From Larkinella soli (GTDB taxonomy: Bacteria; Bacteroidota; Bacteroidia; Cytophagales; Spirosomataceae): 64,000 nt of DNA. Position 1 is the first letter of the stretch; every line of letters begins with the position of its first letter. Shown here piece by piece: positions 3,083 through 63,534 of this stretch. A model generated the notes under the pieces. That model was given only the letters and a program-made list of their open reading frames with translations, was not told the origin of the DNA and did no database searches. Location: NCBI RefSeq assembly GCF_003703975.1, contig NZ_QTJY01000023.1, positions 1 to 64,000 on the forward strand, given 5' to 3'. The position numbers were made by a program, and so were the translations under genes.

Positions 3083-6000
3083 TTAGAGTTTGACGTTCAG
3101 GTTGACTCCGAAACTCCGGGTGGTCGGCAGCGAGTGGGTTTCGATGCCCTGGATGTTATCCGAAGCACCCGAGAGGGCTTCCGGGTCCAGGTTGTCGAGG
3201 GACTTCCTGATCAGCAGCACGTTGTTGCAGATCGCCGATACCGTCAGGCCCTTGATGAAGGTCTTGTTGACGAACCGCGACAGGTCGTAGCCGATCGACA
3301 GGGCCCGCCAGCGCACGAAACCCGCGTCGTAGACGAACCGCTCGGCGTTGTTGGTGCTGCGGTAGCTGGAGTAGAAGTCTTCGGCTTCGACCTTCGTCGT
3401 GTTGGCCGAGCCGTCGGAGTTGACCCCGTCGAAGACCACCCCGCCCTCGCGGCCCACCAGCGACGCCTTCGAGAGGCCGTGCCGCAGGAAGTTCAGGTTC
3501 GAATTGGAAATCAGCTTGTGACCGGCCTTGAAGTCGACCTGCGTGAAGACACGGAATCCCTTGTAAGTGAGTGTGTTGAGCCAGCCACCGGTCCATTTCG
3601 GGATGGCGCTGCCGAAGGTGACGATGTCGCCGGCCACCGGCTTGCCGCCCGAGGTGATGATGCGGCCCTGCCCGTCGCGCTTGTAGGCGATGCCCCGCAG
3701 GGAAGCCATCGGCAGTCCGACCTCGTGCCATACCTCGCCGAAGAAGTCGCCCTGGCCCACCTTGAGCCGCTGCTGGCCGCCCGCCAGCGCCAGCACTTTG
3801 CTCTCGTTATAGGTGACATTGAAGGTGGTTTCCCAGTTGAATTTCGGCCGTTTGACCGGCACCAGCGTCAGCAGCACCTCGACGCCCTGGTTGCGCAGCC
3901 GCCCGACGTTGACCTTCGTCTTGTCGTAACCCGACGCGTTGGAGATGTCGACGTTCAGGATTTCATCGACGGTATTTTTCCGGTACAGGGCCAGATCGAG
4001 GCTGACGCGGCTGTCGAGCGCCCGCAGTTCCAGACCGACTTCGGCTTCCTTCACTTTCAAGGGCCGCAGGTTGGCGTTGGGGTTGACGCTGGTCGTCACA
4101 AACCCCAGCGCCTGTCCCTGCAGCGGGTTGGCGTTCAGGCTGTAATACAGGTTGTTCTGATACGGGTCGGTATCCCCGCCCACTTCGGCGTAGGCCGCCC
4201 GCAGCTTGGCGTAGTTCATCCAGACCGGCCGCTCGCGGAGGGCGTCGCTCAGCACGAGGCTCCCGCTGACGGACGGATACAGGTAGCTGTTTGAGGCCGG
4301 GTTGAGGGTCGAGAACCAGTCGTTCCGGGCCGTTACGTTCACGAAGGCGACGTTCTTGAACGAAAACTCGGCCGCGCCGTAGAGTGAGTTCACCTGTTTC
4401 TTGCTGTAGGCATACTGCGGGTCCTTGTTCTGCCCGTTCATGATCGTATACAGCCCCCGGATGTAAAAGTTGGTGGCCGATGCGCTGTTGTTGGTATACA
4501 CCTGCTGAAGCTGGTTGCCGCCCAGCGTCAGGTCAAAGCCGAAATGGCCGAAGTTCTTCGTCGCACCCAGCAGGAAATCCATGTTCCGCTCCCGGAACGT
4601 GATCACTTCCTGATAATAATACCCGTTGAAGCCCGTCGCGGCCGCCGACACCGAGCGCGTCCCGGTCGGGCGGTTGTACTCATACGGGCGGGTGTAGTAG
4701 TCCTGTCCGATGCGGCCCTGCACGTACAGCCAGTCCGTGAACTGGTAGCGAAGGCTGGCGTTCCCGAAAATCCGGTCCCGGCGGGCGTTTTCGAAGCGGT
4801 CGTAGGCCACCCAGTAGGGGTTGTTGCGGTTTGTGAAGCGGGAGGTGGCCCGCTCATAGCCGTTCTCGTCGTAGCGATTGGCCTCCAGCACCTTCATCGA
4901 CACCGTCGTGGCCGTGGTGTAGACCGTCGTGTTGGCGTTCAGGTCCTGCAAACCGACCTGCGGGGGGTTGTGGTTGAACTCGTTGGAATAGTTGGCGTTG
5001 AGCTGGGCCGTGAATTTCGGCGTAAACTGGTAGTTGAGGCCCAGGTTGAGGATTTTCTTGTGGAAATCGGAGTTCGGGATGATGCCGTTGGCGTCGGTAT
5101 TGGAAAACGAGAGCCGGAAACCGCCCTTGTCGCTGCCGCCGGAGAGGGCCACAGTGTTGGTCCAGGTGGTGCCGGTGCGGTAAAAATCCCGGATACGGTT
5201 TTTATAGGCCTGGTATGGGCGCTGCACCCCGTCGAACTGGTAGGTCGGCTTGCCGTCGATCTTCTCGCCGAAGCTGAACACCCCCGAACTCTGGGCCTCG
5301 CCCACGGTGCCCGGCCGCTTGCCGAACTCACCCTGACCGTATTCATACTGAAAATCCGTATAATCCAGCGCCCGGTCGGCCGTGAAGTTGGAGTTGATCT
5401 CCACCCCGATGCCCTGGCCGGTGCGGCCGGTTTTGGTGGTGATGACGATGGCGCCGTCCTTGGCCCGGAAACCGTAGAGGGCCGCGGCCGTGGACCCTTT
5501 CAGGACGGTGATGGTTTCGATGTCGTCGGGGTTGATCGACTGGAGTCCGTCGCCGGCGTCGGCCGCCGAGCCGGAGCGGTTGGTGGTTCCGTCGGTGTCG
5601 CCCTGGCGGCTGGAGAAGTTCGTGTTGTTGATCGGCACGCCGTTGACGATGATCAGCGGGGAGTTGTCGCCCTTGAACGACGACTGGCCGCGAATCCGGA
5701 TTTTGGACGTTCCGCCGGGGCCGCCCGTCGGGGCCGTCACGTTTACCCCGGCCACCTTGCCCTGGAGGCTGTTGCCGAGGTTGACGGTGCGGTTGGTCGT
5801 GATCTGCTCGGTATTGACGGTGGCGGTGGCATAGCCGACCTTTTTGGACTCTTTCCGGATGCCCAGGGCCGTCACAACCACTTCCTCCAGCCCTTTGGTT
5901 TCGGTCTGAAGAATGATGTCGATTACCGTCTGGCTGCCGACCGGCACCTCCTGCGTGGCAAAGCCGATGGAGGAGATGACCAGCACCCCGGTATTGTCGG

Positions 6001-6514
6001 GCAGGTTAAGGGTATATCTGCCTTCGCCGTTGGTGGTGGTGCCGACGCTGCTGTTGCCCCGGAGCCGGATGGTGGCCCCCGGCACGGGAAGGCCCGTATC
6101 GTCGGTGACGCGACCGGTGATGGTGACGGCCGCGCTGGCTTCCCCGCCGGCTTCCGTCTTCCGTAGCACGATGCGGGTGCCGATGACTTCGTAGGAGATG
6201 CCCAGCGGCACCAGCAGGCCGTCCAGCACCAGGGCCAAGCGTTCGTTGGCGACGTTCAGCGAGACTTTTTTACTGATCTGAACCGAGTTCGGGCTGTAGA
6301 CGAACTTCACCCCGATCTGCTTCTCGATCCGGCTCAGGACGTTCCGGACTTCGACCGATTCAAGGGAGAGCGTAATGGTCTTGTTGAGTACTTCCTGTCC
6401 ACGGGCATCGTGAGCGTAAGCGATTCCGCAACAGAGCGTTATGAGTAAAATCTGCGTCAATGAAATCCGCATCGCTTCGTAGAGAATCGTTTTAACGGAA
6501 AAGTTTTTTTTCAT
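3083..6514 (-). CDS. SusC/RagA family TonB-linked outer membrane transporter with STN domain
   Basis: A 1143-residue TonB-dependent transporter. In order: signal peptide ending near the Ala-His-Asp-Ala segment (about residue 36); a secretin/TonB short N-terminal (STN) domain at about 45-115, typical of transporters that signal to a FecR anti-sigma; a carboxypeptidase-like regulatory domain at about 130-205; the GLEEVVVTALG TonB-box-like stretch; a plug with a DGAIVITTK segment; and a beta-barrel to the C-terminal Leu. The STN domain fits the adjacent fecR and sigma factor genes: substrate binding would be relayed through FecR to activate transcription. Its partner is the SusD gene 20 bp downstream. 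Confidence 0.93.
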   Translation of the reverse strand: MKKNFSVKTILYEAMRISLTQILLITLCCGIAYAHDARGQEVLNKTITLSLESVEVRNVLSRIEKQIGVKFVYSPNSVQISKKVSLNVANERLALVLDGLLVPLGISYEVIGTRIVLRKTEAGGEASAAVTITGRVTDDTGLPVPGATIRLRGNSSVGTTTNGEGRYTLNLPDNTGVLVISSIGFATQEVPVGSQTVIDIILQTETKGLEEVVVTALGIRKESKKVGYATATVNTEQITTNRTVNLGNSLQGKVAGVNVTAPTGGPGGTSKIRIRGQSSFKGDNSPLIIVNGVPINNTNFSSRQGDTDGTTNRSGSAADAGDGLQSINPDDIETITVLKGSTAAALYGFRAKDGAIVITTKTGRTGQGIGVEINSNFTADRALDYTDFQYEYGQGEFGKRPGTVGEAQSSGVFSFGEKIDGKPTYQFDGVQRPYQAYKNRIRDFYRTGTTWTNTVALSGGSDKGGFRLSFSNTDANGIIPNSDFHKKILNLGLNYQFTPKFTAQLNANYSNEFNHNPPQVGLQDLNANTTVYTTATTVSMKVLEANRYDENGYERATSRFTNRNNPYWVAYDRFENARRDRIFGNASLRYQFTDWLYVQGRIGQDYYTRPYEYNRPTGTRSVSAAATGFNGYYYQEVITFRERNMDFLLGATKNFGHFGFDLTLGGNQLQQVYTNNSASATNFYIRGLYTIMNGQNKDPQYAYSKKQVNSLYGAAEFSFKNVAFVNVTARNDWFSTLNPASNSYLYPSVSGSLVLSDALRERPVWMNYAKLRAAYAEVGGDTDPYQNNLYYSLNANPLQGQALGFVTTSVNPNANLRPLKVKEAEVGLELRALDSRVSLDLALYRKNTVDEILNVDISNASGYDKTKVNVGRLRNQGVEVLLTLVPVKRPKFNWETTFNVTYNESKVLALAGGQQRLKVGQGDFFGEVWHEVGLPMASLRGIAYKRDGQGRIITSGGKPVAGDIVTFGSAIPKWTGGWLNTLTYKGFRVFTQVDFKAGHKLISNSNLNFLRHGLSKASLVGREGGVVFDGVNSDGSANTTKVEAEDFYSSYRSTNNAERFVYDAGFVRWRALSIGYDLSRFVNKTFIKGLTVSAICNNVLLIRKSLDNLDPEALSGASDNIQGIETHSLPTTRSFGVNLNVKL

Positions 6515-6731
6515 ACTTTTACTACGTTTTCATTCAATTTTTGGGTAAAAACAAGCCCCCTGTTCATCTGCGAAGATGAAGCCGACAAGCGTTCAGGAAG
6601 GGGTTTTTGAAGCCGATGATGCTGGAACCATCATCGGCTTTTTCGTGAAGCGGGAATGTTACGTTTTCAAAAAAGGAATTAAGGGTTTAGGAACAAGTAA
6701 TCAAGGTTTAAGGAATAAAGTAAAAGCTCGT
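6515..6731. promoter_or_regulatory. Intergenic region between fecR and susC, likely sigma-dependent susC promoter
   Basis: This 217-bp gap separates fecR from the STN-type SusC gene on the minus strand. In FecIR-type systems the cognate ECF sigma acts on a promoter in this position. I could not identify a clear consensus by eye. The gap also contains the hairpin at 6610-6640. Confidence 0.35.
6610..6640. terminator. Hairpin downstream of fecR
   Basis: AAGCCGATGATG (6610-6621) pairs perfectly with CATCATCGGCTT (6629-6640) around a 7-nt loop. The T-run follows the stem on the plus strand, although the genes here are on the minus strand, so it is a weak terminator for fecR. It may instead block antisense transcription or act as an mRNA-processing structure between fecR and susC. 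Confidence 0.5.
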
Positions 6732-7733
6732 TCAGGGGCAGCCTTTTCCGTTGATGAAAATGCTGGTTCCCCGGGTTTCATATTTGGCGTTCAATGATTT
6801 GCAGATGAGTTCAAGCTGCGTGAACAGGGGCAGCTCGTTGAGGTCGCCGTTGAACATGCAGCCGCTCAGGGCGTCGTTCTCCAGGAAGATGTCGATTCCG
6901 TAAGCGGCCTCCAGCCGTTTCAGCACGTCGGGCAGCGCCATGTTCTCAAACACGAAGCTACGGGTCGGACCGGGAGCCGCCAGTTTCTCCGGGCGCTCGA
7001 TCAGGGTCGGGATGAGCTGCTTGCTCTGTTTATCGTACGTAATTCGCTGGTTCGGCTTCAGAATCACTTCCTTACGGTCGGGTATAGACGCTTCGGTGTT
7101 CTCATAGACCGACACCCGGCCCGTCGCCACGGCCACCTCGATGGTTTTGGCGCCCTCGTAGGATTTCACGGTAAAGCTGGTGCCCAGCACCTCGGTGGTC
7201 AGATCCCCGGCCTGCACGATGAAGGGCTTGGTGGGGTCTTTCGTCACCTGAAAAAAGGCTTCCCCTTTCAGAAACACCCGCCGGTTTTTCCGGCTGAAGT
7301 GTTCGGGGTAGCTCAGGACGCTGTTCGGCTGCAATACCGCCACGCTGCCGTCTTCGAGCCGAACGGGCTGGGGCTTGCCGGCGATGTTGCGGATTTCGAT
7401 GCTGCCCTGCGCCGGGGCCGACTGCCCCACCGGAGCCGCCGACCGGCGGTATTCGCTCAGGACCCAGACCGCGCCGGCCAGCACGAGCAGCACGCAGGCC
7501 GCCATCGCCAGGCGGGCCCGGGTCAGCAGCGGACGAACCGCCGACGTTCCGACCGTTTTCGTATACAGCCGCTGCCAGATGCGCTGCCGGATGGCTTCCT
7601 TCTCCCCGGCTTCGACCGGCACCGGAACCTGCCCAACCCGCTCGTACCAGTCGAGAATGATCTTTTCCTCCTCCGGATCACAGGCTCCGGCGAGGTACTT
7701 TTCCAGTAATTTATCAAACTCGTGCTGTGACAT
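6732..7733 (-). CDS. FecR family anti-sigma regulator with DUF4974 C-domain
   Basis: A 333-residue inner membrane protein. The N-terminal cytoplasmic part (about 1-75) would hold the ECF sigma. A single membrane helix follows at about 78-96. The FecR domain spans roughly 115-215, with the typical VRLEDGSVAVLQPNS and VFLKGEAFFQVTKDPTKPF segments. The C-terminal DUF4974 domain (about 260-330, ALPDVLKRLEAAYGIDI) resembles an STN domain. It follows the sigma gene by 35 bp and precedes the STN-containing SusC, so the three make a classic cell-surface signalling cassette. Confidence 0.93.
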   Translation of the reverse strand: MSQHEFDKLLEKYLAGACDPEEEKIILDWYERVGQVPVPVEAGEKEAIRQRIWQRLYTKTVGTSAVRPLLTRARLAMAACVLLVLAGAVWVLSEYRRSAAPVGQSAPAQGSIEIRNIAGKPQPVRLEDGSVAVLQPNSVLSYPEHFSRKNRRVFLKGEAFFQVTKDPTKPFIVQAGDLTTEVLGTSFTVKSYEGAKTIEVAVATGRVSVYENTEASIPDRKEVILKPNQRITYDKQSKQLIPTLIERPEKLAAPGPTRSFVFENMALPDVLKRLEAAYGIDIFLENDALSGCMFNGDLNELPLFTQLELICKSLNAKYETRGTSIFINGKGCP

Positions 7734-7768
7734 TCGGATTCGGTTTTCGGCGTCCGGTGCAACCCCGG

Positions 7769-8353
7769 TTAATTATAGTTCTGATAGGCCCGCAACTGCT
7801 CTTTCAGCAATTTCATCGACTTGGTCAGATGGTATTCGATCGCTTTCTCCGACAGATTCAGTTCGTTGGCGATGTCGCGCACCGACCGGTTTTCGAAGCG
7901 GCTCAGGCGAAAAATCTCGCAGGTTTTCTCCGGCAGCTTCTTCATCACTTCCTCCACCGCCTGTGACAGATCGGCGAAATTCACCAGTTCCTCGGTGGAG
8001 AACGACTGCTGCATCTCGTGCAGAATCAAATACTCCTGCAGCCGCCGGTGGTTGATCTGCGACTTGATGTAATTGGTCGACAGGTGTTTGATGGACACCA
8101 CCAGATACATGCCCAGGTGCCGCACCACCAGCTGCCGCCGACGGTGCCACAGGCTCTCGAACAGATCGTGAACCAGCTCCTCAGCCTCCTCCTTCGTTCC
8201 GATCTGGTGATAGGCCACCCCGAAAAGCTTGTACCAGTAGCGGTTGTAGATTTCCTCGAACGCCCCGGCATCGTCGTCCCGGAGAAAACCCACCAACTGC
8301 TCTTCGGGAATTAGTCGATAATTCATCCGAGATACGTTCTGCTGTGATTTCAT
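7769..8353 (-). CDS. RNA polymerase ECF sigma factor (FecI-like, Bacteroidota type)
   Basis: A 194-residue ECF sigma factor. Region 2 is at about 25-95 (FEEIYNRYWYKLFGVAY, then EELVHDLFESLWHRR) and region 4 at about 135-185, with the recognition helix near SVRDIANELNLSEKAIEYHL. It should direct polymerase to the susC promoter and perhaps other targets when released by the FecR protein encoded next. An internal ATG at residue 10 (8326) is an alternative start. No strong TAnnTTTG promoter is visible upstream. Confidence 0.92.
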   Translation of the reverse strand: MKSQQNVSRMNYRLIPEEQLVGFLRDDDAGAFEEIYNRYWYKLFGVAYHQIGTKEEAEELVHDLFESLWHRRRQLVVRHLGMYLVVSIKHLSTNYIKSQINHRRLQEYLILHEMQQSFSTEELVNFADLSQAVEEVMKKLPEKTCEIFRLSRFENRSVRDIANELNLSEKAIEYHLTKSMKLLKEQLRAYQNYN

Positions 8354-8738
8354 GTATAGTCAATCTATCCGACGAAATCCCTAATTCATTTTAAATATTC
8401 TTTGAAAGATATAATTTTATAGAAGGAATTATAATTTTATCAGGATTCCTTCCGATAAATCCTATGTCATTTTTTCAGATGTGTTCCTGGTTTCAATGAG
8501 TTGGGGGGCGGGGCCGGGCTTCACCGGAGCCACCATTTTCCCTGAATGGCCGGCTTTCCGGAATACCTATCCTGACCTAACCCCCGAAAGGAACAAAATA
8601 GTGAAGCGGCCCCACCCCCCCAGACCACCCCCAGCCCCCTCCTTGCTAAGGAGGGGGAGCGCTCCGCCATTTTCAAAACCCTGCGAAGCCACCCCCTCCT
8701 TAGCAAGGAGGGGGCTGGGGGGTGGTCTGTTCCCCAAC
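8354..8738. other. Intergenic region carrying a GC-rich inverted repeat
   Basis: No convincing gene. The first 120 bp, next to the sigma gene, are AT-rich and probably hold its promoter. The rest is dominated by the inverted repeat at 8621-8729. A frame across the repeat is an artefact of Pro-rich translation. Confidence 0.7.
8621..8729. repeat. Long inverted repeat with palindromic core in each arm
   Basis: Left arm 8621-8657 and right arm 8692-8729 are near-perfect reverse complements, ending in CAGACCACCC and GGTGGTCTG. Each arm contains a self-complementary core of C-rich, TTGCTAAG and G-rich blocks (CCCCCTCCTT and AAGGAGGGGG around GC). The layout looks like a multicopy REP- or MITE-like genomic repeat, and the structure could also terminate transcription of the Dabb gene that ends at 8739. 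Confidence 0.8.
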
Positions 8739-9161
8739 TCAGACCGTCACCGCATTGACCGAGTCATAGACGGTTACTTTCGTCCAGAGCCCGGAGCAGT
8801 CCTCGACAAACTTGAGGTGCGTCGGGTGGGTCTGGTAGATGTCCTGGTCCTTGCGGTTGTTGAACACCAGCAGCAGCGAAAACTGGTAGGTGGTGTCGAT
8901 GACCGGCCGATTCGTGTCGGCCGGAACGCCGATGTGGGCGGTCTTGATGACTTCGATGGTCGGAAGCGTCTGGAGGCCCTTCAGGAGCCGGGCGCGGTCT
9001 TCCTTGCTGTCCGGATTTTTCATCCAGAAATAGACGTGGTGGACGAACATGTTGCTGACGGGTACGGCCTGGGCCTCGGTGGCGGCAGCGCCGGCCAGAC
9101 CGGCTCCGGCCAGGGCCAGGGTGGATTTCTGTAAAAATTCGGAACGCGTTACCTTTTTCAT
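8739..9161 (-). CDS. Secreted Dabb (stress-responsive alpha/beta barrel) domain protein
   Basis: A 140-residue protein. The first 35 residues form an export signal: TRSEFLQKSTLALAGAGLAG resembles a Tat signal with only one of the two arginines, and cleavage would fall after the Ala-rich stretch. The rest matches the Dabb family, a small ferredoxin-like dimeric barrel: VHHVYFWMKNPDSKEDRARL at the start, then a central hydrophobic strand (SLLLVFNNRKDQDIYQTHP) and HLKFVEDCSGLW. Family members include stress proteins and some cyclases or decarboxylases; no catalytic role is supported here. It is transcribed divergently from the AraC gene. Confidence 0.85.
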   Translation of the reverse strand: MKKVTRSEFLQKSTLALAGAGLAGAAATEAQAVPVSNMFVHHVYFWMKNPDSKEDRARLLKGLQTLPTIEVIKTAHIGVPADTNRPVIDTTYQFSLLLVFNNRKDQDIYQTHPTHLKFVEDCSGLWTKVTVYDSVNAVTV

Positions 9162-9264
9162 CGGTCGTTGTACGGATTAAGTGGCTGTTATCCATACAAA
9201 GGTGGTAGGATATGCGAAGGATGTACTTGTAAAAATCCATCATTCCTCAGTATTTTGTCGTCTC

Positions 9265-10140
9265 ATGAAGCGTTTCACCCAGCACGAGCCGTTCAACATT
9301 TTCCGCTTCGAGGAAAGCGAATGGCCGTATCCGCTCCACAACCACAGCTATTTCGAGATCATTTTCATCGACGAGGGGCACGGCCGGCACGTGGTCAACG
9401 AGTTTGAGTTCGACTACCGGCCGGGCGACGTGTTTCTGCTGGGGCCGGAAGACCATCACCTTTTCAAAATCGAGGCCCGGACCCGCTTCTGTTACCTGCG
9501 GTTTACGGAGCTGTTCTTCCGGAGCGAGTCGAGGGAGGGGGCCGGAAAATCCTGGGAGCAAACGATGGAATATCTCTTTCACGCGCCCTACCAGTCGGTC
9601 GGCAGCATCGTGAAGGACCCGGCGGAAAAGCAGCGGATCGACCATCTGCTGACGGTCCTGATCGACGAGTACGACCACCGCAAAAACCGGTTTGCCGACA
9701 CCATCATGGGCCACCTCATGCGGTCGATTCTGAGCATTCTGGCCCGCAACATTTACCGGCACACGCTTCAGACCCGACCGGAGGGGCCGGTGTCGCTGCC
9801 CGCGCTGGAGGACCTGCTCGTCTACGTCCGGCAGCACATCGCCGAACCCGACAAACTCCGCATCAACCACCTGGCCCGGCAGTTTCATTATTCGCCCAAC
9901 TACCTGAGCATCTTCTTCAAACGGCAGACCGGCGAATCGCTCCAGCAATATATCCTCCGCTATAAACTGAAGGTGGTGGAAACCCGGCTTCTCTACAGCA
10001 GCTGGAGCATTTCGCAGATTGCCTTCGAGCTGGGTTTCACCGACGAGAGCCACCTGAGCCGCATCTTCCGGAAATATTACCGGCAAAGCCCCGGCCAGTT
10101 CCGGAAAGCCCGGCCCGAACCACAAAAAAGCCGCCCCTGA
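9265..10140 (+). CDS. AraC family transcriptional regulator
   Basis: A 291-residue regulator with an N-terminal cupin sensor (HNHSYFEIIFIDEG, then YRPGDVFLLGPEDHH) and a C-terminal double helix-turn-helix (about 190-285; SPNYLSIFFKRQTGESLQQY, then ISQIAFELGFTDESHLSR). I start it at the ATG at 9265 because the 28 codons upstream, from a GTG at 9181, look non-coding and the cupin begins right after MKRFTQHEPF. The ligand is probably a sugar, as is common for cupin-type AraC proteins. It is divergent from the Dabb gene, which could be a target. Confidence 0.92.
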   Translation: MKRFTQHEPFNIFRFEESEWPYPLHNHSYFEIIFIDEGHGRHVVNEFEFDYRPGDVFLLGPEDHHLFKIEARTRFCYLRFTELFFRSESREGAGKSWEQTMEYLFHAPYQSVGSIVKDPAEKQRIDHLLTVLIDEYDHRKNRFADTIMGHLMRSILSILARNIYRHTLQTRPEGPVSLPALEDLLVYVRQHIAEPDKLRINHLARQFHYSPNYLSIFFKRQTGESLQQYILRYKLKVVETRLLYSSWSISQIAFELGFTDESHLSRIFRKYYRQSPGQFRKARPEPQKSRP

Positions 10141-10166
10141 GACACAGAGACGGCTTTCCGTTTTTT
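10127..10166 (+). terminator. Rho-independent terminator of the AraC gene
   Basis: AAAGCCG (10127-10133) pairs with CGGCTTT (10151-10157), followed by a T-run at 10161-10166. The left arm overlaps the last codons of the AraC gene. The neighbouring gene at 10178 is convergent. Confidence 0.6.
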
Positions 10167-10177
10167 CTTAACCTAAT

Positions 10178-10561
10178 TTATTGAAGCGAAGTCGGGAGCA
10201 TCACGATCTGCCGATTGGTTTCCTTCGGGGTAACCAGGCTGATCTCTTTCCGGATGCTTCCCCTGGAAGATCGGATTTCAAGTTCATACTGCCCGTCGGC
10301 CAGGTCGGCCACTTTCATTTTCAGTGCGTATTTCAGGTCTTTCCGGCCGATTACCTCCCGGAAAAGCAGCTCGTTCCGTCGGTTCCGCAGCAGGACCGTC
10401 ACGGGCTCCTCCGCCGTTTTTTCAACGGAAACCCGGATTTCATTCTTCACCGTGACATAGGCGCTGGCGTCGAATGAGAGGGCTTTCGGGGAAGCCGGAT
10501 CGCTAACGGGTGACGTACTGAACAGGGCAGCGCAAACCAGAGAATTCAGGAGATTGAACAT
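10178..10561 (-). CDS. Small secreted hypothetical protein
   Basis: A 127-residue protein that starts with a hydrophobic signal (MFNLLNSLVCAALFSTSPVS). The remainder reads like a single beta-sandwich: alternating strands such as KNEIRVSVEKTAEEPVTVLL and ADLADGQYELEIRSSRGSIR. The G-x-Y-x-L-x-I pattern near residues 95-105 is like that of DUF3244 and other T9SS-sorting-like folds in Bacteroidota. I cannot assign a function. It is convergent with the AraC gene. Confidence 0.6.
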   Translation of the reverse strand: MFNLLNSLVCAALFSTSPVSDPASPKALSFDASAYVTVKNEIRVSVEKTAEEPVTVLLRNRRNELLFREVIGRKDLKYALKMKVADLADGQYELEIRSSRGSIRKEISLVTPKETNRQIVMLPTSLQ

Positions 10562-10758
10562 GACGTGATGTGTTTAGTATTTGTTGTTGGATGTCTTGGC
10601 AGTTGTTGTTAACCGTTCGCATAGACAAATTCCAAACGCCGTGCCAATCTCTTTAACCACCTGGTTATCAATAATCTGATTTTTTCGCCAATATTTTAGA
10701 ATGTACGGAGTCGGACAAATTCTGTTCGATTGCGGACAGACCGGACGGACGGCCGGTC
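10562..10758. other. AT-rich intergenic region upstream of the small secreted protein
   Basis: About 200 bp with no gene, between the heparinase-like gene and the small secreted protein, both on the minus strand. It is more AT-rich than the flanks and probably holds the promoter of the 10561 gene. No clear consensus was found. Confidence 0.5.
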
Positions 10759-59373: not shown

Positions 59374-59799
59374 TCAGGCAGCTAAGCTGTCCATTCTGGA
59401 GATTTTCTTTACAAAACGACGCAGAGTATCCTGACTTATAGGCTTCGGCAGCTGGTGATTGATTTGCTGCAGAACCTGACGGGGCTCTTTGGGAAAGCTC
59501 ATAAGGGCCTGCATTACCTTTTCGACGTGCTGTTTGTCGGCAGGATTCAGCTTCGGTTTCAGGCCACGGCCCGGTTTATCCTGAAGCCCCTGCAGGCCAC
59601 CTTTTTGCCAGCGGTTCATCCAATTGTAGATGCTCCGACGATCTACACTGAACATTTCCATCAGTTCGCTGACGGTTAATCCATAGTAGCTGTAAAGAAC
59701 ACATTGGCAACGCTTCTTTAAAACGTTGTTCTGGCTTTCACGAATCGTCTGCCGGAGCAGGTCAACTTCTTGTACGGTTAAATTTTTGATGTTCCGCAT
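59374..59799 (-). CDS. IS630-type helix-turn-helix protein, without a DDE domain
   Basis: A 141-residue protein whose sequence matches the N-terminal half of IS630 transposases: a first helix-turn-helix (LYSYYGLTVSELMEMFSVDR then RSIYNWMNRWQKGGLQGL), the QDKPGRGLKPKL linker, and a second winged helix (HQLPKPISQDTLRRFVKKI). The DDE catalytic half is absent, and only 113 bp separate it from dnaG. It could be orfA of a two-ORF IS630 element that lost orfB, or a domesticated DNA-binding protein. Six copies of a 13-bp motif lie just upstream. Confidence 0.75.
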   Translation of the reverse strand: MRNIKNLTVQEVDLLRQTIRESQNNVLKKRCQCVLYSYYGLTVSELMEMFSVDRRSIYNWMNRWQKGGLQGLQDKPGRGLKPKLNPADKQHVEKVMQALMSFPKEPRQVLQQINHQLPKPISQDTLRRFVKKISRMDSLAA

Positions 59800-60120: not shown

Positions 60121-60819
60121 ATGAACTCTTCGAACGAAAATCAGAAACCTGCCGCCCCTTCGTTCTCAATCCGGCGAAAAGATTTTTCAATTTTGGTAGC
60201 ACAATCGGAGCTTTTCACCTGCGAGGTATTGTGCCAGTTATTAAAACAACAGGGATACAATGTAGTTGGGAAAGCCGTGGAACTGGAGGATACGCTCCAG
60301 CAGATCCGGGTCAAGCAGCCGCAGTGTGTCATTCTGGAGTCGGAGATTTCGGGCCGAAGAAGCGTGGATATCGTGCAGCAGGTTCGATCTGATAACGAAC
60401 GAACCAAATTTATTCTGTATACCAGCAAACCTGATCTAAAGCTGGTAGCCAATGCCATGCAGCAGGGCTTTTACGGCTTCCTGTATGCCAATGACGGCCT
60501 GGATGAACTGTATAAATGTTTCCAGACTATCAGCACGGGCGGATACTACTACAGTTCGGGCTTTCTGCTGCTGCTGAAGAATTACGGAATGAATGTCATC
60601 AATGAGGAAACCAAAAGGCAGCTTTCGCGCCTGAGCAGTCGGGAAACGGAGATATTAAGACTGGTTGCGGATGGAAATCCCGGACATGAAATTGCCGACC
60701 AGCTGCACATCAGTTATCGGACACTGGCCAATCATAAAACGAATATTGCCCAGAAACTGGGTCTTGACAGTTGCCGGCATCTGGCCCGGTTTGGGATCGG
60801 GGTCAGAGATTATTTGTAA
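60121..60819 (+). CDS. LuxR-type regulator with degenerate receiver domain
   Basis: A 232-residue protein with an N-terminal receiver fold (about 22-140) and a LuxR HTH (about 170-228: LSSRETEILRLVADGNPGHE, then IADQLHISYRTLANHKTNI). The receiver has lost its chemistry: the acidic pair is Gln28-Ser29 in ILVAQSE, the phosphorylated Asp is Glu73 (VILESEI), and the conserved Lys is Ala123 (GFLYAND). Only Thr101 remains. It probably works without phosphorylation, perhaps locked in an active-like form. The six-copy motif is directly upstream. Confidence 0.87.
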   Translation: MNSSNENQKPAAPSFSIRRKDFSILVAQSELFTCEVLCQLLKQQGYNVVGKAVELEDTLQQIRVKQPQCVILESEISGRRSVDIVQQVRSDNERTKFILYTSKPDLKLVANAMQQGFYGFLYANDGLDELYKCFQTISTGGYYYSSGFLLLLKNYGMNVINEETKRQLSRLSSRETEILRLVADGNPGHEIADQLHISYRTLANHKTNIAQKLGLDSCRHLARFGIGVRDYL

Positions 60820-62099: not shown

Positions 62100-62297
62100 A
62101 TGAAAAAGACCTTCATTATCAACTCCGCTAAGCAACTGTTGGATTCAGCTTCTTCAAACCTGAACATCACGGCCAAGAACGAATCCACTACGATTTTCCA
62201 ACTGAAAGCCGGTACCGGAAAAACCGTATGCTGCGAGTGGGTTCCCCAATTCCTGGGAATGAAGAAGGACGGCCTGGATCAACTGGTGCTTTCCTGA
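62100..62297 (+). CDS. Small 65-residue peptide, possible RiPP precursor
   Basis: The peptide opens with MKKTFIINSAKQLLDSASSN, a helical leader-like part, followed by a polar middle, then GTGKTVCCEW with adjacent cysteines (C44, C45), and ends FLGMKKDGLDQLVLS. It has no signal peptide and no Gly-Gly cleavage site. It lies 37 bp before an acyltransferase with an RRE-like domain on the same strand. I infer that it is the substrate, but other roles such as a small regulatory protein are possible. No family recognised. Confidence 0.6.
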   Translation: MKKTFIINSAKQLLDSASSNLNITAKNESTTIFQLKAGTGKTVCCEWVPQFLGMKKDGLDQLVLS

Positions 62298-62334
62298 ATG
62301 AACTGAACTCCTCTTTCATAATCCTATTTCAACC

Positions 62335-63468
62335 ATGAGTAACTTCGTGCATCGCTATCAACGGGAACTCGAACGCTGCCGACAGCGGTTCGAATCTCTC
62401 GACCTCAGGAAGGAAAAAGGGTACCTTTTCAAATTTACGACGTTCTCGGCAAACATCCAGAACATTTTACCTGAAATTCCTATTGATAAGCACGAAGGTC
62501 TCTTTCAGGAGTTGCTGCTCCAGCAGGTGTATACCACCTTCGACCAACAGTTTTTGAGCGCAAACGACCTGCTTCAAACTAAAGGGCCGATCCGGGACCT
62601 GATTCAAAGCCGGCGCCCTCACATCTATTGCACTTTCCATCTTGGTTCTTACCGCCTGCTGACCAGTTACTTATATCGCAACGGCCTCGACCTTGCCTTA
62701 CTGGTCAGCAGCGGAACGAACCAGGGACAGGGGAAAGAAATCTGGGAGACGATCCGGGGATTGCAGAAAAAGCATAAACTGACCAATTCCTTCCAGATTC
62801 TGGAAGCGGAGCAATCTTCTTCAACTCTTCAGATTATACGTGAACTGAAAGCAGGAACGTCATTGGTCATCTTCATTGACGGGCTGACGAGTACGACCGG
62901 GGTTAACCGCCAGGAAGACAAGGAAATCCAGATTCGCTTCGGGTCCCAGAACCTCTGGGCCCGCAAAGGGGTCGGTTTTCTCTCCTATGTTACTCAAACT
63001 CCGATTGTTCCGGTTATCAGTCACCGGGAGAGAAATTTGAATAATGTCCTGTCATTTCTTGATCCGATCGTTCCCAAAGCCGGCGTCGATCGCGAAACTT
63101 ACTGCCGGCTGAGCCTCCAGTCTCTCTACGATTCCTTCTGGAAGTTCCTGAACCGGTATCCGGGCCAGTGGGAAGGCTGGAATTACATCCACCGGTTTCT
63201 GGACCAGCAACAGCTGGAACAACAGACCGATTATTGCCCCTCTCCGCCGGCCCGCGCCAGAAAACGGGTGGCCTTCAACCAGGAGAGGTATACACTCTGC
63301 GATCTGGAAGATGCACCGATCCTCTTCGACCGCCGGTTGTATGTAACGTATGAAATTTCGCCGGATCTCCGGGATTTCCTGCTCCAGCTGAGCAGTATCG
63401 AAGACCCGGAAGAGGTACTTGGCACGGAAATGTTTCTGGACCTACTGTCCAAACAGATCATTGCCTGA
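62335..63468 (+). CDS. LpxL/HtrB-like acyltransferase with C-terminal RRE-like domain
   Basis: A 377-residue protein. The lysophospholipid-acyltransferase (LPLAT) core spans about 90-290: IYCTFHLGSYRLLTSYLY near 97-114 (the H-x4-D/E site, here H102 with Arg at 107), SLVIFIDGLTS near 176-186, and RKGVGFLSYVTQTPIVPVIS near 210-229. The C-terminus (about 310-377; RYTLCDLEDAPILFDRRLYV, then TYEISPDLRDFLLQL and FLDLLSKQIIA) has the strand-strand-helix pattern of PqqD/RRE peptide-binding domains. Not membrane-anchored. The peptide gene upstream would be its partner. Confidence 0.7.
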   Translation: MSNFVHRYQRELERCRQRFESLDLRKEKGYLFKFTTFSANIQNILPEIPIDKHEGLFQELLLQQVYTTFDQQFLSANDLLQTKGPIRDLIQSRRPHIYCTFHLGSYRLLTSYLYRNGLDLALLVSSGTNQGQGKEIWETIRGLQKKHKLTNSFQILEAEQSSSTLQIIRELKAGTSLVIFIDGLTSTTGVNRQEDKEIQIRFGSQNLWARKGVGFLSYVTQTPIVPVISHRERNLNNVLSFLDPIVPKAGVDRETYCRLSLQSLYDSFWKFLNRYPGQWEGWNYIHRFLDQQQLEQQTDYCPSPPARARKRVAFNQERYTLCDLEDAPILFDRRLYVTYEISPDLRDFLLQLSSIEDPEEVLGTEMFLDLLSKQIIA

Positions 63469-63482
63469 GACGATATCGTATT

Positions 63483-63534
63483 AACGGAAAGCGCTCCCCG
63501 TAGACAGTCTACGGGGAGCGCTTTCCGTTTTTGA
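63483..63534 (+). terminator. Strong rho-independent terminator after the acyltransferase
   Basis: AACGGAAAGCGCTCCCCGT begins a 23-bp stem (63483-63505) that pairs perfectly with 63507-63529, followed by a T-run. One of the longest perfect stems in the window. Confidence 0.92.

Follow-up and report, generated by a model that had tools for sequence, protein, structure and literature searches.

Does the short open reading frame that precedes an acyltransferase-like gene in Larkinella soli encode the substrate of that enzyme? The window analysed here, a stretch of 64,000 nucleotides of contig NZ_QTJY01000023.1, contains a gene for a 65-residue peptide and, 37 bp downstream of it, a gene for a 377-residue protein (Table 1). 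From the letters alone, an initial annotation had proposed that the two constitute a peptide-acylation system, the protein combining an LpxL/HtrB-type acyltransferase core with an RRE-like C-terminus. Both open reading frames lie where that annotation had placed them, and so does the strong terminator that closes the pair 3' of the enzyme gene. The peptide was also said to be devoid of an export signal, which agrees with its hydropathy profile since this displays no strongly hydrophobic stretch.

Table 1. Features of the locus, with coordinates in the window.
Feature	Position	Strand	Basis or remark
NarL-type response regulator (232 aa) whose phosphoacceptor Asp is replaced by Glu73	60121..60819	+	PF00072/PF00196
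Divergently encoded membrane protein with a LytTR domain and four hydrophobic segments, 322 aa	60895..61863	-	PF04397 (3.7e-16); hydropathy; same place in homologous loci
Precursor-like peptide, 65 aa	62100..62297	+	ORF; alignment of 30; 52 distinct homologues
Candidate peptide acyltransferase of 377 aa, with an acyltransferase fold and an RRE-like domain at its C-terminus	62335..63468	+	ORF; AlphaFold model, mean pLDDT 90.6; Foldseek
Active-site stretch C99-T-F-H102-L-G-S-Y-R107	62629..62655	+	His kept; acid of HX4D/E replaced
D182-G183	62878..62883	+	D 50/50, G 47/50
RRE-like C-terminal domain (predicted), residues 313-377, three strands and three helices	63271..63465	+	Separate model of residues 308-377; Foldseek
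Intrinsic terminator	63484..63528	+	20 stem pairs counted, then T-run

The association of the peptide with the enzyme was assessed in homologous loci and then in whole genomes. In a set of 35 loci, a small open reading frame starting like M-K-(K)-x-F-x-I is found just upstream of every close homologue of the enzyme, and is missing upstream of three remote homologues (L017-L019). A profile of the enzyme matched 66 of the 222 genomes of the bacterial family. Sixty-two of these carry the close, peptide-module type (>500 bits), while G013, G096, G103 and G162 have remote types only. The peptide gene lies upstream of the enzyme gene in 62/62 genomes with a close-type enzyme, loci having been assigned to genomes by hand, and a profile of the peptide (E <= 0.001) matched the same 62 genomes and none of the other 160. 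The conservation of the peptide gene beside enzyme homologues, on which the acylation proposal depended, is therefore strict. The two profiles comprise 30 rows each, some of them from the counted genomes; the genomes that contributed rows are consequently not independent tests of the linkage, whereas the remaining ones are. The source genome contains one match to the enzyme, and the seven closest named homologues all come from Larkinella (77-82% identical).

Conservation within the peptide was quantified on 52 distinct homologues, hand-chosen from 48 loci. They share a leader motif, M-K-K-x-F-x-I, followed by K26-x-E28, then by a Cys (Cys-Cys in the window peptide), and finally by a variable C-terminus. 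F5, E28 and a Cys are present in all 52 peptides, K26 in 51, I7 in 50 (Leu in the other two) and the Cys-Cys pair in 44, and the variable regions are the segment between E28 and the Cys and the C-terminus. The constant leader and variable core anticipated by the initial annotation are thus seen upon alignment, and a short gene that adjoins a candidate maturase and displays both is what is expected of a RiPP precursor. Since the gene is found upstream of the enzyme in every module genome and has a dN/dS of 0.03-0.20 in the nine pairs computed, it is a real gene. Two or three tandem peptide genes accompany a single enzyme gene in seven loci (L011, L030, L032, L034, L035, L066 and L101); several precursor genes in tandem are frequent in RiPP clusters. 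An NCBIfam scan of the window peptide matched no model, so that no known leader type is seen in it. The Bacteroidota promoter consensus (TTTG, 17-23 nt, TAnnTTTG) was also looked for upstream of the peptide gene and was dropped, being found at 0 of 48 loci.

The AlphaFold model of the enzyme was compared with the PDB using Foldseek. The best match is LpxM (5knk, E 1.5e-11; a second LpxM match, 1.8e-11), followed by PatA and PlsC; these three kinds of LPLAT enzyme account for every one of the 16 matches with E under 1e-3. The LpxL/HtrB-type core is hence borne out at the level of the predicted fold. By sequence, the window protein scores below the gathering cut-off of PF01553 (E 0.16, 12.2 bits versus 23), and PF03279 (Lip_A_acyltrans) is absent from its Pfam matches; among 30 homologues, PF03279 is the commonest Pfam family, matching 14 of them at E<=1 (best 2.6e-8). 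The relationship to acyltransferases is thus real but remote by sequence, and the match of the modelled fold is clear.

The active site departs from the canonical one. H102 is present in 50/50 aligned members, but the position five residues downstream is Arg in 43 of them and Asp or Glu in none, so that the HX4D/E catalytic dyad is absent from all 50; conversely, six of six canonical LpxL-like proteins of related genomes display H-x-G-x-x-E. As the catalytic acid is missing from each of these members, the protein is a putative acyltransferase, and membership of the canonical LPLAT enzymes is not claimed: the model describes an LPLAT fold with a non-canonical active site. A tree likewise sets the canonical LpxL proteins apart from the enzyme family (support 100/99); in it the peptide-module enzymes do not form a resolved clade (2 changes, which is compatible with a single origin), and the other branches are not ordered. 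Other positions are strictly kept, His102, Gly104, Asp182 and Trp279 being invariant in the 50 members and Cys99 being conserved in 46. The D182-G183 pair is what I take to be the equivalent of LPLAT motif III.

One possibility is that the LPLAT domain transfers no acyl groups but acts as a peptide-binding scaffold or as a fatty-acid-binding sensor, the peptide being modified or used in some other manner. The systematic replacement of an acid that canonical LpxL proteins retain is what such a pseudoenzyme would display. Yet four invariant residues would be needless for a mere scaffold, and some relatives of the enzyme adjoin arginases or fatty-acid-type genes (see below), a setting in which an acyltransferase makes chemical sense. 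I therefore consider a pseudoenzyme improbable.

The second part of the fusion, the RRE-like C-terminus, fared differently in structural and in sequence comparisons. When modelled alone (46 rows), residues 308-377 gave a pLDDT of 93.0 and the order strand-strand-strand-helix-helix-helix; the same elements are found in the full-length model and correspond to the three-strand, three-helix winged-helix fold of RREs. The top Foldseek match of this domain in the PDB is the RRE of the lasso-peptide protein TbiB1 with its leader (E 0.079, probability 0.99, TMq 0.64). Among the best 50 of 430 matches at E <= 10, the 14 rows with a TMq >= 0.50 are all RRE-bearing RiPP proteins, namely TbiB1, another lasso B1, the PbtF RRE, SuiB and ThcOx; WW domains and unrelated proteins appear among the rows of lower TMq, and no E-value is below 0.05 among the matches. 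By contrast, profile searches see no RRE: neither Pfam nor NCBIfam recognises one, the PqqD profile PF05402 is absent for 30 full proteins and 46 domains, and a sequence search of the PDB returned nothing relevant. An hhalign comparison with a set of 26 PqqD proteins of related genomes, hand-picked from 36 candidate frames at Pfam hits (two long frames and the rest being left out), gave a weak alignment in full-length register (P 0.0098, probability 4%), to be compared with P values of 0.028-0.64 for four unrelated controls and of 0.011 for a control pair that did not include the domain (neighbour N-termini versus a response-regulator HTH). Since sequence profiles are silent and hhalign is weak, the RRE claim rests on predicted structure, where the model is a confident one: the last 65 residues or so of the enzyme are predicted to fold as an RRE. 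This domain thus resembles TbiB1, PbtF, SuiB and ThcOx in its predicted fold, but shares no detectable sequence similarity with them, and they belong to other pathways and have other catalytic partners. The N-terminal domains of M50 and arginase proteins found next to some homologues were considered as a bridge to known RREs and rejected; they resemble PqqD (hhalign P 2.4e-4, but also 0.011 against a response-regulator HTH) but not the C-terminal domain (P 0.17).

If the enzyme belongs to RiPP biosynthesis, its more divergent relatives might be expected among RiPP genes. Twenty-five loci of remote homologues were examined (L067-L080, L126-L128 and L181-L188), G655 and G737, which are of the same genus as five included loci, being left out. 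RiPP genes are present at 18 of the 25, in 10 genera. The assignment is based on profile scans in 17 cases (L067, L068, L069, L071-L077, L079, L126, L127, L181, L182, L185 and L186) and on precursor-like open reading frames alone in L070. Seven of the 18 come from one genus (L069, L071-L075, L077) and three from another (L067, L068, L076), so these loci are not independent. The genes comprise Lant_dehydr_N/C, TIGR03891, TIGR04192/TIGR04193, radical SAM maturases, daptide-type M50 proteases and repeated precursors of the ...LEERLE... type, and in L069, L070 and L074 the RiPP gene is 4-7 kb away from the acyltransferase gene. Lant_dehydr_N, TIGR03891, Arginase, UPF0489 and FlmE/OhkG score above their curated cut-offs; the M50 proteases, GRASP_w_spasm and several radical SAM models score below, and such matches show the kind of RiPP gene, not its exact type. 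The seven loci without RiPP genes represent three genera (L080, L183, L184, L187, L188, L128 and L078). In the first five of them, all from one genus, the family member is longer and its surroundings, which are constant and devoid of RiPP genes, include a 7TM-DISM/SpoIIE signalling protein next to the acyltransferase (scanned in L184 only); L078 has fatty-acid-type genes only.

Two of these clusters include an arginase-family gene. In L067 (positions 3098-8052), four tandem precursors containing ...LEERLEMAAADRCNNRCNG... are in a row with an M50-type protease, a protein whose Arginase domain (PF00491, 5.6e-59) is preceded by a long N-terminal extension, as well as the acyltransferase; the L067 precursor starts with MEKQFEI, close to the MEKQFAL and MKKQFAI of the peptide module, and an ornithine lipopeptide is a possible product. 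In L185 (positions 6272-10752), a PF12640 protein (4.2e-19) directly adjoins the divergent acyltransferase, together with a FlmE/OhkG-family radical SAM protein (4.6e-216, above cut-off) and two precursors ending in DDVLF, a gene content that identifies it as an ohk-like orphan RiPP cluster. PF12640 is described as a peptide-arginase family in PMC12703449, which also reports the conversion of Arg to Orn in flm/ohk clusters and places the acyl group of selidamides on ornithine. The presence of two Pfam arginase families beside one acyltransferase family suggests that ornithine is the acceptor at these loci, as it is in selidamides.

Another branch of the family is surrounded by type II fatty-acid-like gene sets (L068, L069, L071-L075, L078, L181), with a lanthipeptide dehydratase alongside in L068, L071-L073, L075 and L181. 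Ketosynthases, an acyl ligase and the dehydratase adjoin the acyltransferase there (one protein each was scanned for the ketosynthase and ligase labels, the others being assigned by eye), and these loci are possibly RiPP-fatty-acid hybrids. The acyltransferase gene of L075 (positions 6795-7997) is split in two frames; intact relatives exist.

An alternative reading of the enzyme starts from its closest folds, since LpxM, PatA and PlsC all act on lipids or glycolipids, and from the predominance of Lip_A_acyltrans among the Pfam families of its homologues: it would acylate a membrane lipid (an ornithine lipid, an aminolipid or similar), and the peptide would be its small regulatory subunit. The genomic setting does not fit well with this. 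Ten conserved outer neighbours were scanned against Pfam (DnaG, glutamine amidotransferase, PAP2, RNase E/G, TPR, MutY-like, CorC-like, Wzz, DHH and a large surface-type protein) and none of them is a lipid A gene. Together with the RiPP clusters at most remote loci, this indicates that the enzyme is not usually found beside lipid A or lipid genes, a situation that the initial annotation had regarded as fatal to its proposal; the fatty-acid-type genes of the one remote branch qualify this statement. The predicted RRE fold, the tandem peptide genes with a variable core and the many divergent homologues in RiPP clusters are likewise hard to reconcile with a lipid substrate, which makes this reading quite improbable.

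The data support the peptide-acylation reading of the initial annotation: each of the three outcomes that it had named as refuting failed to occur, in the case of the C-terminus at the level of structure only. From this reading I infer both an active enzyme and an acylated peptide. The enzyme is probably a RiPP maturase that acylates the neighbouring peptide, the literature searched describing no RiPP acyltransferase of this fold, and the two genes would constitute a minimal RiPP pathway. The RRE-like C-terminus would grip the leader, most likely by its M-K-K-x-F-x-I strand, F5 and I7 mediating strand addition as in known RREs, which bind leaders in this manner according to PMC7470986. The LPLAT-fold domain would then use acyl-ACP or acyl-CoA as donor and transfer the fatty acyl chain to a peptide side chain, with H102 as base; the near-invariant Lys26 and the invariant Cys are the candidate acceptors. 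The lipopeptide may finally be trimmed and released or exported by proteins encoded elsewhere. That the window module has neither a protease nor an exporter counts against such a pathway.

How does this proposed pathway relate to known lipidated RiPPs? In selidamides and nostolysamides, as described in PMC13060382 and PMC12703449, GNAT enzymes place a fatty acyl group on Orn or Lys side chains. The module resembles them in associating a small precursor with a dedicated acyltransferase, and the arginase-family genes of L067 and L185 extend the likeness, but the enzyme has the predicted LPLAT rather than the GNAT fold, and a predicted C-terminal RRE in addition. Lipolanthines, goadvionins and lipoavitides are N-terminally acylated class III lanthipeptides made with GNAT enzymes (PMC13060382); they too join a lipid to a RiPP, as proposed here, and fatty-acid-type genes occur at some divergent loci, but a lanthionine synthetase is absent from the window module. 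DAG-RiPPs are also from Bacteroidota, but receive their lipid on a signal-peptide Cys through the Lgt/LspA/Lnt lipoprotein pathway (PMC12636315), and no such signal is seen in the window peptide. LpxL/LpxM and PatA share with the enzyme the predicted fold and the conserved His, but the enzyme differs from them by its RRE-like C-terminus, its lost catalytic acid and the absence of lipid A genes from the set of scanned neighbours. The flm/ohk DD(I/V)LF orphan RiPPs of PMC12703449 are matched by L185, with its DDVLF precursors, FlmE/OhkG-type radical SAM protein and PF12640 arginase, to which a divergent acyltransferase is added; the window module has neither DDVLF precursors nor radical SAM protein nor arginase. 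The word acyltransferase is absent from the main text of PMC12703449, as it is from those of the RRE papers PMC7470986 and PMC12710340, and no report of an LPLAT-type RiPP acyltransferase was found among the literature matches listed, which did not extend to subscription papers and supplements. Given this scope, an LPLAT fold with an RRE is likely, though not proven, to be new as a RiPP acyltransferase, lipidated RiPPs as such being already known. If the proposal is correct, RiPP acylation can also rely on a second fold, unrelated to that of GNATs and carrying its own leader-gripping domain. Peptide natural products may gain or lose potency and stability through lipidation; the enzyme would provide a new peptide-lipidation tool, and a genome-mining handle as well since the family would mark several types of RiPP clusters in Bacteroidota.

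The pair does not stand alone. The divergent membrane LytTR gene pointed out in the initial annotation is indeed present (Table 1), and beyond it lies a response-regulator gene, not assigned to the block in that annotation, which completes a set of four genes. In neighbour clustering on 25 named loci and the window, both regulators accompany the enzyme at all but one of these 26 places; L043, where they were missed, is a contig of 4 kb on which part of the LytTR gene is visible. The block is kept in Runella and Rhabdobacter, although the outer neighbours differ there. Among the 222 genomes, the response regulator (1e-30) was detected in 63, i.e. the 62 module genomes and G196, and the LytTR protein (1e-25) in 68, five genomes with other LytTR homologues being added to these. 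LytTR alone was discarded as a marker of the module, being less exclusive. Of 45 distinct response regulators, 44 have Glu at the phosphoacceptor position and the remaining one has a gap there; this replacement of the Asp suggests that the protein may act without phosphorylation.

Small Cys-bearing peptides, encoded in tandem at some loci and flanked by regulators, are reminiscent of toxins or bacteriocins, for which the enzyme would ensure self-protection or activation instead of serving as a RiPP maturase. Across all lineages, however, neighbour clustering found only the two regulators to be conserved with the pair, and no immunity or export gene, and the predicted RRE fold of the enzyme also argues against this explanation, which is the least probable of those considered. 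Under the preferred reading, and as a guess, the product regulates the block or is regulated by it, since the LytTR protein and the pseudo-response regulator are constant companions of the pair. A bolder and rather doubtful extension is that the block serves signalling by a lipidated peptide in Gram-negative bacteria: the acylated peptide would enter membranes and be sensed there by the four-segment LytTR protein, with the pseudo-response regulator as partner, while the same enzyme family would lipidate many other Bacteroidota RiPPs, through acylation of ornithine after arginases or in RiPP-fatty-acid hybrids.

Two minor observations concern the surroundings of the block. In G196, which is of the genus of the Runella loci, the response-regulator gene is accompanied by a LytTR fragment located some 60 bp at most from a contig end (L189, contig G196:C103), and neither peptide nor enzyme is present in the two contigs examined, a pattern that may reflect loss or an assembly gap alike. 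In the window, a 141-aa helix-turn-helix open reading frame (59374-59799) separates the block from the DnaG-like gene; it may represent the N-terminal portion of an IS630-type transposase, the IS630 model scoring below cut-off and HTH_32 matching at 7.7e-13.
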